A stretch of DNA of 64,000 nucleotides. Source: Lelliottia wanjuensis. GTDB lineage: Bacteria > Pseudomonadota > Gammaproteobacteria > Enterobacterales > Enterobacteriaceae. The position numbers were made by a program, and so were the translations under genes. Of this stretch, positions 28,344-43,675 are shown piece by piece (positions within the stretch are counted from its first letter, which is position 1; each line of letters begins with the position of its first letter). Where the stretch lies: assembly GCF_030238365.1 (NCBI RefSeq), contig NZ_JASSOT010000052.1, positions 1-64,000 on the forward strand, given 5' to 3'. The notes beneath the pieces were generated by a model. It ran no database searches and was not told the DNA's origin. It saw nothing but the letters and a program-made list of their open reading frames with translations.

Positions 28344-28650
28344 AAGCAATCCCTGCATGGCTATTCACGGCCATATAGTCATTTTGACGGAAATTAACTT
28401 CTGATAGTAAAGCAATTCTCAAATATGTAAAAAAGAAAGTTGCTAACAAATAATAATGGAGCCGGGCGGGCAAGGCAAACTGTGATTCAAAGCCCGTTTT
28501 GAAAAGTGTGTAATATTGCACGGTGTCTTTACGTGGCCAAAAATGCATTATGTAGCCGGGAAATAATATTTTTACTTTAATAATAATCTTTATGAATGCG
28601 TTATTATTAATTTATTATGATTTTGTATTTTATCTATTTGAAGTGTGTTG
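28344..28650. other. AT-rich intergenic segment upstream of ybdN
   Basis: About 300 bp with no supportable gene. The stretch 28560-28635 is strongly AT-rich (runs of TAATAAT) and should be bent or H-NS-prone. It presumably carries the ybdN promoter. Nothing else was recognised. Confidence 0.5.
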
Positions 28651-28687
28651 TTAGGTCAAACCTATCGCAGCCATAGACACGAATGCC
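28651..28687 (+). promoter_or_regulatory. OxyR-like binding site
   Basis: TTAG-N7-CTAT-N7-ATAG-N7-TGCC fits the OxyR tetranucleotide pattern ATAG-N7-CTAT-N7-ATAG-N7-CTAT in the two central quarters exactly and 3/4 in the first; the last is poor. It lies 11 bp upstream of a promoter-like -35 and about 300 bp upstream of ahpC, an OxyR-regulated gene in E. coli. Confidence 0.55.
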
Positions 28688-28698
28688 ATCGCGGCGGA

Positions 28699-28727
28699 TT
28701 GCTCATTGCCTGCGCGGGTGGTGTAAT
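28699..28727 (+). promoter_or_regulatory. Candidate sigma70 promoter before the ahpC leader/sRNA
   Basis: TTGCTC at 28699-28704 and TGTAAT at 28722-28727 with an ideal 17-bp spacer. A start near 28734 would fall at the base of the first hairpin of the structured RNA. Confidence 0.5.
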
Positions 28728-28733
28728 CAGGTC

Positions 28734-28848
28734 GCTGTTACATCCTGTCTCAGGTTATGTAGAGCGCAACGCAACGCCAGCTTAGGCTGGCACTGAATGA
28801 CCCCGCGGGAGTTCAGGTATCAGGGCCGCCCGTTGAGGCGGCCTTTTT
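28734..28848 (+). ncRNA. Candidate structured sRNA or attenuator leader upstream of ahpC
   Basis: About 115 nt with three features in series and no ORF. Hairpin 1 (28733-28766) pairs CGCT with AGCG, TACAT with ATGTA, and CCTG with CAGG around TCT. Hairpin 2 (28776-28791) is GCCAGC-TTAG-GCTGGC. A CCCGCGGG palindrome (28802-28809) comes next, then an intrinsic terminator. With the promoter and OxyR-like site just upstream it looks like a complete transcription unit. It could be a trans-acting sRNA, or the ahpC leader with a premature terminator. Confidence 0.5.
28824..28848 (+). terminator. Intrinsic terminator upstream of ahpC
   Basis: GGCCGCC-CGTTGA-GGCGGCC, a perfect 7-bp stem with 6-nt loop, followed directly by TTTTT. 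Confidence 0.85.
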
Positions 28849-28983
28849 ACGTTTGGGGCATTCACCACGTTGTCTTGAAAGGCTTGTAAGGTATGACTGA
28901 TTGATTTGATACGGCAAACGCATTAGCCCCCTCAGCCAAAGTTCGTTACCTTACATCTCAACGAAAACACGGAGGAAGTACAG

Positions 28984-29547
28984 ATGTCTTTGATTAACAC
29001 TAAAATTAAACCTTTCAAAAACCAGGCGTTCAAAAACGGTGAATTCGTCGAAGTGACCGAGAAAGATACCGAAGGTCGCTGGAGCGTGTTCTTCTTCTAT
29101 CCGGCAGATTTCACCTTCGTTTGCCCAACCGAACTGGGCGACGTGGCAGATCACTACGACGAACTGCAGAAACTGGGCGTGGACGTTTACTCTGTCTCTA
29201 CCGACACCCACTTCACCCACAAAGCGTGGCATGGCAGCTCTGAAACCATCGCGAAAATCAAATACGCGATGATCGGCGACCCGACTGGCGCCCTGACCCG
29301 TAACTTCGACAACATGCGTGAAGATGAAGGCCTGGCTGACCGTGCCACCTTCGTTGTTGACCCGCAGGGTATTATCCAGGCTATCGAAGTTACCGCTGAA
29401 GGTATCGGCCGTGATGCATCTGACCTGCTGCGCAAAATCAAAGCCGCTCAGTACGTCGCTTCTCACCCAGGCGAAGTGTGCCCGGCTAAGTGGAAAGAAG
29501 GCGAAGCAACGCTGGCTCCATCCCTGGACCTGGTTGGTAAGATTTAA
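28984..29547 (+). CDS. ahpC: Alkyl hydroperoxide reductase peroxiredoxin AhpC
   Basis: Typical 2-Cys peroxiredoxin that reduces H2O2 and organic hydroperoxides in the cytoplasm, recycled by AhpF. 187 residues. Peroxidatic Cys47 is in [12 protein letters not shown] and resolving Cys166 is in GEVCPAKW; the C-terminal region of sensitive bacterial AhpC is present. A strong GGAGG site precedes ATG 28984. ahpF follows. Codon use is strongly biased, as for highly expressed genes. Confidence 0.98.
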
Positions 29548-32554: not shown

Positions 32555-32606
32555 TTATTACTCCATGTCGTTAATGCTGCGTGCACCGCAGAAACCAATC
32601 CAAAAG

Positions 32607-32637
32607 AAAACCCTCGCCGTCTGGCAGCGAGGGTTTT
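32607..32637 (-). promoter_or_regulatory. Leader attenuator-like terminator upstream of rnk
   Basis: AAAACCCTCGC-loop-GCGAGGGTTTT is symmetric and carries a U-tract on the minus strand (TTTTCTTTTGG). It lies 53 bp upstream of rnk. A premature terminator in this leader has been proposed for enterics (rnk leader). As the two flanking genes are divergent, it is not a normal gene-end terminator. Confidence 0.6.
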
Positions 32638-32796
32638 ATCTGTTCTGATGATACTGGCTGTGCCCGCAACTTTGAAGTGATCAATGTCACATTCATTGCG
32701 CAGATGAAGTTTATGCAGGATGGATTTCAGGATTGCCGCTGTACCGGGCGAGTTCGCGCGGCATAATGAGGTTCTGACTATACACCGGAGAGCGTC

Positions 32797-43222: not shown

Positions 43223-43412
43223 CTGAAAAATGACAAAGGGTTGGCTGAAAAATACACGCTTTTTACATCGGAAAGAACAAACAGCCAGCCGATAAAATTA
43301 ACGCGACTTTTGTCACTTTTTAACAAAGATCCGCTGGACAAAACGCCCCACAATTGTTGTACTGATACCCGACACAGCATTTGTGTCCATTTTTCATGTA
43401 AAGGTAATTTTG

Positions 43413-43622
43413 ATGTCTAAGATTAAAGGTAACGTTAAGTGGTTTAATGAGTCCAAAGGATTCGGTTTCATTACTCCGGAAGATGGCAGCAAAGACGTGT
43501 TCGTACACTTCTCTGCAATCCAGACTAATGGTTTCAAAACCCTGGCTGAAGGCCAGCGCGTTGAGTTCGAAATCACTAACGGTGCCAAAGGTCCTTCTGC
43601 TGCTAACGTAACTGCTCTGTAA
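43413..43622 (+). CDS. cspE: Cold-shock-like RNA chaperone CspE
   Basis: 69-residue single cold-shock domain. RNP1 KGFGFITP and RNP2 VFVHFSAI are perfect. The sequence differs from E. coli CspE at essentially one position near the C-terminus. Start ATG 43413 with AAGG upstream; the in-frame extension 30 bp upstream is rejected. Between pagP and crcB, as in E. coli. A strong terminator follows. The 190-bp leader upstream is long, as usual for csp genes. Confidence 0.97.
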
Positions 43623-43646
43623 TTCGAGCCGTTCAGCAAGAAATCC

Positions 43647-43675
43647 AAAACCCGCTCATTGAGCGGGTTTTTTTT
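43647..43675 (+). terminator. Intrinsic terminator of cspE
   Basis: AAAACCCGCTC-ATT-GAGCGGGTTTT followed by TTTT, 25 bp after the cspE stop. Confidence 0.9.

Follow-up and report, generated by a model that had tools for sequence, protein, structure and literature searches.

Organization of the region upstream of ahpC

The stretch analysed here, called the window, comprises 64,000 nucleotides of Lelliottia wanjuensis DNA. On its forward strand, positions 28651-28855 carry in order an OxyR-like site, an extended -10 promoter (P1), an RNA with four stems and an intrinsic terminator, and ahpC follows downstream (Table 1). The elements that a first-pass annotation had proposed from the sequence were all found in their places, namely TTAG-N7-CTAT-N7-ATAG starting at 28651, TTGCTC-N17-TGTAAT and the terminator stem. 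Its estimate that they precede ahpC by about 135 bp or more is borne out as well, the ATG lying 133 nt past position 28850. It was right about a structured RNA but counted two strong hairpins, whereas three stems precede the terminator. The upstream OxyR-like site that it described is present; a second one, between the terminator and ahpC, had been missed.

Table 1. Features of the ahpC upstream region (positions in the window)
Feature	Position	Strand	Basis or remark
Distal OxyR-like site, TTAG-N7-CTAT-N7-ATAG-N7-TGCC	28651..28687	+	14/20 consensus positions; core conserved
Promoter P1, TTGCTC-N17-TGTAAT with TG extended -10	28699..28727	+	sequence and conservation
STnc70 sRNA	28734..28850	+	predicted 5' end ~28734 (from the -10); 3' end ~28848-28850 (from the terminator)
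Helix A (5' stem)	28733..28766	+	folding and covariation
Unpaired linker CAACGCAAC, candidate seed region	28767..28775	+	conservation; seed role predicted
Helix B	28776..28791	+	folding and covariation
Helix C	28793..28816	+	folding and covariation
Intrinsic terminator	28822..28850	+	stem 28822-28845, T at 28844-28848 (U tract)
Proximal OxyR-like site of ahpC	28887..28923	+	12/20; position conserved
ahpC, 187 aa, downstream gene	28984..29547	+	ATG at 28984; nearest named relatives 98% identical

The left neighbour in the window is ybdN, named by similarity to the E. coli gene and about 290 bp away, and no dsbG lies beside ahpC. A block resembling GTTCAC-A-GTTGTCTTG at 28860-28877, between the terminator and the proximal OxyR-like site, is common to many STnc70 loci; none was seen by eye in a Serratia or Mixta locus.

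The RNA belongs to the STnc70 family

An Rfam scan of the whole window gave three matches over their cut-offs, one of which, at 28762-28855, is to the enterobacterial sRNA STnc70 (RF02069; 59.2 bits against a cut-off of 40, E = 2.7e-9). The RNA is a member of this catalogued family. The other two matches are a cspA thermoregulator at 43300-43674 (+) and an rnk leader at 32599-32708 (-). The window aligns from the first to the last position of the STnc70 model. The model has 149 positions, however, and in its consensus the helix B loop contains a palindromic insert, at which the window skips 57 positions; the match also omits most of helix A and stops short of the promoter and the OxyR-like site. 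In E. coli MG1655p the STnc70 match (L025, 2386-2479, 42.7 bits) occupies the same place, the dsbG-ahpC intergenic region, and ends 144 nt before ahpC, compared with 128 nt in the window.

The insert form is seen in genus g46, where the helix B loop of four of the five sampled genomes (L002, L127, L128, L134) holds an imperfect palindrome about 52 nt long. The match there is 183 nt long with the insert and 131 nt in L122, which has a short loop; the Rfam model follows the insert form. The possibility that the insert is a multicopy element was also considered: a search of four genomes with it gave a single match, the source itself, and a related stretch with 33 bits was found elsewhere in G144.

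The Rfam model matched in 21 of 149 family genomes, in 20 of them over the cut-off. A second covariance model, R1, was built from 26 loci without the insert. It was trained on the loci of the Rfam search together with named loci, so that finding these again is no evidence. R1 matches the window at 28729-28855 and gave matches in 88 of 391 family genomes (E <= 0.001), representing 34 of 149 genera, some of the weak ones arising by chance; at 42 bits or more there were, by our own count, 70 of the 391 genomes and 24 of the 149 sampled genera. On the same genomes R1 gained little over Rfam: by hand count, G074, G096 and G108 scored 43-64 bits with R1 and were under the cut-off with Rfam. Matches below 40 bits account for 18 of the 88 genomes. 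Twelve of these were inspected (L173-L184), of which five lie upstream of ahpC (L173, L174, L176, L180, L182) and seven have no ahpC in the stretch examined, which in L175 and L178 stops at a contig end. Two weak Rfam matches (L023, L024) likewise have no ahpC in the stretch examined. Within the genus of the window, R1 matched in 56 of 60 genomes. No R1 match (E <= 0.01) was obtained in 72 loci chosen by their AhpC (L034-L105; 73-91% identity), which include Serratia, Pantoea, Mixta, Morganella, Biostraticola and Vibrio.

For the comparisons below, a set of 100 STnc70 loci was used. Left out of it were near-identical loci (L004, L015, L106-L109, L111, L113, L119, L124, L131, L133), eight loci of the window's genus (L186, L187, L189, L191, L193, L195, L197, L201) and weak matches (L023 and L024 from Rfam and the ten R1 loci L175-L184). 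The RNA lies on the ahpC strand in all 100, with a median of 141 nt (range 115-174) between the end of the match and the ATG.

Structure, covariation and coding potential of the RNA

The segment 28729-28855 folds at -56.1 kcal/mol (z = -4.33), and none of 200 shuffled sequences was as stable. Eight folded sequences, that of the window included, gave z values from -4.74 to -1.51, the weakest fold being that of E. coli (z = -1.51, 13 of 200 shuffles as stable). The fold consists of helix A at the 5' end, helices B and C and the terminator stem, A and B being separated by an unpaired linker of 9 nt. Covariation of the hairpins, proposed as a check by the first-pass annotation, was found in all four helices. 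Among 97 distinct sequences, 85.9% of cells were paired, against 38.5-49.2% in slid controls, and 29 of 44 pairs showed changes on both sides (shuffled mean 18.7). No shuffle of 500 reached the observed value of any of five measures, which are not probabilities, as the shuffles do not keep relatedness. Both-side changes and paired cells amounted to 3 of 6 pairs and 96.3% in helix B, 8 of 10 and 88.1% in helix C, and 9 of 14 and 89.0% in the terminator stem; the alignment was fitted to R1, which holds these three helices, and their counts lean accordingly. Helix A, outside R1, had both-side changes in 9 of 14 pairs, with 76.3% of cells paired.

In the linker, conservation is 95-99% at each of the positions C, A, A and C, and 87 of the 97 distinct sequences have GCAAC unchanged. 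Being unpaired and nearly invariant, this linker is a natural candidate for pairing with targets.

A coding role was considered and rejected, as no open frame is common to the loci. In four RNAs, no frame that closes before the RNA ends is longer than 17 aa. When frames were allowed to run past the RNA end, 63 of 100 loci had one of at least 25 aa, with scattered starts, the commonest position being shared by four loci. The window has a 30-aa ATG frame at 28797-28889 that starts in helix C and is not kept in a genome of the same species, L198, in which the longest frame is 18 aa. The start-stop ATGTAG occurs in 42 of 97 sequences, inside helix A. On the other hand, in the one paper found to list STnc70, a ribosome-profiling table for EHEC gives, for a 94-nt interval, 47 RNA reads versus 141 ribosome-footprint reads (PMC5331693). 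More footprint than RNA reads is unusual for a non-coding RNA and counts against the sRNA reading, though the numbers are low.

The distal OxyR-like site and promoter P1

The OxyR consensus is ATAGNTNNNANCTATN7ATAGNTNNNANCTAT, with 20 fixed positions. Scores given here are matches to this consensus, and a score is not a footprint. A site of this type upstream of the promoter, as expected of a member of the OxyR regulon, was found in the window and in E. coli. The distal site of the window scores 14/20 and is the single best of all 37-nt positions in the 64 kb. Nine of ten positions match in its first half and five of ten in the second, in which the last tetrad, TGCC, matches at 0 of 4; three of the four inner T6/A10 positions fit. 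The E. coli MG1655p site upstream of STnc70 scores 16/20, equal to the two oxyS control sites, one from an Escherichia-type locus (L205) and one from genus g46 (L206), with 16/20 each. Counting against OxyR control of an sRNA, 19 of 116 loci have a distal region with a score no higher than 12.

The core of the site, CCTAT-N7-AT[AC]G, is present in 97 of the 100 loci. It was unrecognised in L153 and L173, which are one letter off, and in L158, which has other sequence left of P1. In this Escherichia-type locus, 358 nt upstream of ahpC were examined; the sequence left of P1, the distal site included, differs from that in related loci, with a contig end close by. The P1 pattern was found in 98 of 100 loci and fails in L167 and L196. 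Among 102 distinct loci matching both patterns, the TG element and a 17-nt spacer are present in all, that is in 42/42 without dsbG and in 60/60 with it. The distance from CCTAT to the TTG of the -35 is 37 or 38 in 116 of 116 loci having both patterns, a count that includes near-identical loci and uses, for double matches, the pair nearest 37; the same spacing was found in 102 of 102 distinct loci. P1 is absent from a scan for consensus promoters, which requires an A at position 2 of the -10 that TGTAAT lacks, and the terminator pattern alone occurs at chance level (1 found, 0.9 expected). Both elements are weak alone and are supported by conservation.

In E. coli, dsbG is the left neighbour and is transcribed divergently, which leads to the question whether the distal site is that of dsbG, the RNA being merely nearby. 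The distance between site and dsbG is roughly constant where that gene is present. In one paper dsbG is named among the OxyR genes, yet it was not dysregulated there (PMC9026346). The window, however, keeps site, promoter and RNA without dsbG. No dsbG was found in the stretch examined in 39 of the 100 loci, and 37 of these keep the core, the two exceptions being a single-letter change and L158. Moreover, the spacing to P1 is 37-38 both with dsbG (71 of the 116 loci) and without it (45). Ownership of the site by dsbG alone is very unlikely in view of these loci; where dsbG exists, the site is likely used by both dsbG and P1. Our reading is that the distal OxyR-like site serves P1, as its spacing and conservation suggest.

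A second question concerns the protein that binds. The RNA could be constitutive or otherwise regulated, with the CTAT-N7-ATAG palindrome bound by a regulator other than OxyR. In 42 distinct loci without dsbG, the seven central positions, which were not selected on (CCTAT and ATAG were selected by the pattern), hold 1.66 bits per column versus 0.39 in the upstream flank, a level above what an OxyR site would be expected to require; in addition, many loci match the consensus poorly in the outer tetrads, as the window does in its last one. Against this stand the parity of the E. coli site with the oxyS controls, the fit of three of the four inner T6/A10 positions in the window and the neighbouring gene, ahpC being an OxyR target. 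With these points weighed together, control by another regulator, or none, appears improbable. Besides the highly conserved distal centre (28666-28672), the centre of the proximal site also looks nearly constant in an alignment of the loci.

The centre of the distal site lies about 65 nt upstream of the RNA 5' end, which is predicted, versus 56 nt in both oxyS controls (L205: site 1648-1684, RNA start 1610, minus strand; L206: site 1427-1463, RNA start 1501). The difference counts against OxyR control of the RNA, yet both geometries would suit activation from upstream.

The terminator and the separate OxyR-like site of ahpC

Of 116 loci, 104 have their best proximal OxyR-like score at -96 to -98 from the ATG, and 12 have it at another position. 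The proximal site of the window scores 12/20, a value that equal-length shuffles reach in 19 of 500 cases. Given this weak score, the claim for the proximal site rests on position and conservation. Seven Enterobacterales loci without the RNA (L034-L040) have the site at -95 or -97, with 13-16/20 in six and 10 in the seventh. We take the proximal site to be older and shared, the RNA and its distal site having been gained, or retained, in a single lineage.

In 115 of 116 loci a hairpin with four or more T after it was recognised, with a median of -16.4 kcal/mol; as the folded segments differ in length, single energies compare only roughly. The terminator stem contains a mismatch in five Escherichia-type loci (L025 and, assigned by similarity, L020, L158, L161 and L162), four of which also have an interrupted run of T. 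Some terminators outside Escherichia are also weak. In the Escherichia-type loci a large share of the transcription from P1 may continue into ahpC. Their mismatched terminators suggest a decay from sRNA terminator to read-through leader.

The first-pass annotation had left two readings side by side, a peroxide-induced sRNA independent of ahpC and an ahpC leader whose premature termination tunes AhpC output. In the latter, a long ahpC transcript would begin with this RNA as its 5' leader and be terminated conditionally. The place of the RNA, on the ahpC strand and 115-174 nt before the gene in all 100 loci, fits such an attenuator, as do the Escherichia-type terminators, where read-through is likely. 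Leader attenuators with intrinsic terminators are similar in having a structured RNA and a terminator ahead of a coding gene in the same orientation; they differ from the present case, which has no conserved alternative fold and a downstream gene with an OxyR-like element of its own. A conserved antiterminator was sought in 97 sequences, using transcripts ending before the 3' arm of the terminator, and none was found. The 5' arm pairs upstream with a median of 0.52 versus 0.66 for shuffled upstream RNA, lower in 68 of the 97, and its partners are scattered. A first median pairing of 0.57 had looked suggestive of an antiterminator and was rejected as below chance against the shuffled control. 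In addition, ahpC has its conserved OxyR-like site after the terminator, and the gap from the RNA match to this site varies from 18 to 77 nt (taking -97 as the site start). The attenuator is unlikely on this evidence, though read-through into ahpC may occur, above all in the Escherichia-type loci with degraded terminators.

STnc70 as a candidate OxyR-activated sRNA

The reading that we regard as probable is an independent STnc70 sRNA gene, activated by OxyR and ending at its own terminator, whose RNA probably acts in trans via GCAAC, with some read-through into ahpC. The first of the two earlier readings is thus favoured over the leader, through the sRNA family, the fixed spacing of site and promoter, the core kept in loci without dsbG, the separate ahpC site and the lack of a conserved antiterminator; its peroxide part draws on the OxyR-like site. 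As envisaged from these elements, peroxide would oxidise OxyR, and the oxidised protein would bind the distal site and activate P1. RNA polymerase would make a four-stem RNA of about 115 nt, mostly stopping about 133 nt before ahpC, and ahpC would be driven separately through its own proximal OxyR-like promoter. During peroxide stress, STnc70 would pair with target mRNAs in trans via the linker containing GCAAC, alongside OxyS. Counting against this reading, the RNA stands beside ahpC in all 100 loci, which a trans-acting gene would not need. In Escherichia-type loci, given their weak terminators and the weak fold in E. coli, the RNA may serve mainly as a leader of ahpC.

OxyS is the textbook example of a small RNA induced by peroxide. 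Like OxyS (RF00035), which has a 16/20 site in the two control loci, STnc70 is a short, structured intergenic RNA that follows an OxyR-like site; it differs from OxyS in sitting upstream of ahpC. The OxyS model gave no match at 28550-29000 with E up to 1, where STnc70 alone was reported. Elsewhere in the same genome there is an OxyS-like match (G000:C38:7995-8105) with 55.3 bits, below the cut-off of 75, which would make STnc70 a second peroxide RNA. No account of the control or function of STnc70 was found in the searchable open-access papers, and a term search of the main text of an E. coli 3'-end study (PMC7815308) returned neither 'ahpC' nor 'OxyR'.

STnc70 is known as a family and little studied; its conserved switch appears to respond to peroxide and to be distinct from the one serving ahpC, the peroxidase gene next to it. 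In its widest form, which we hold tentatively and at slightly less than even chances, the proposal is that enterobacteria would have in STnc70 a second regulatory RNA under OxyR control, widely conserved and inherited together with ahpC, yet transcriptionally insulated from it and pairing with targets through GCAAC, and that decay of the terminator in Escherichia would be turning it into a plain ahpC leader. If OxyR-activated STnc70 is correct, it would explain the two OxyR-like sites upstream of ahpC, and part of the peroxide response would run through an RNA without an assigned job, tied to a main peroxidase gene.
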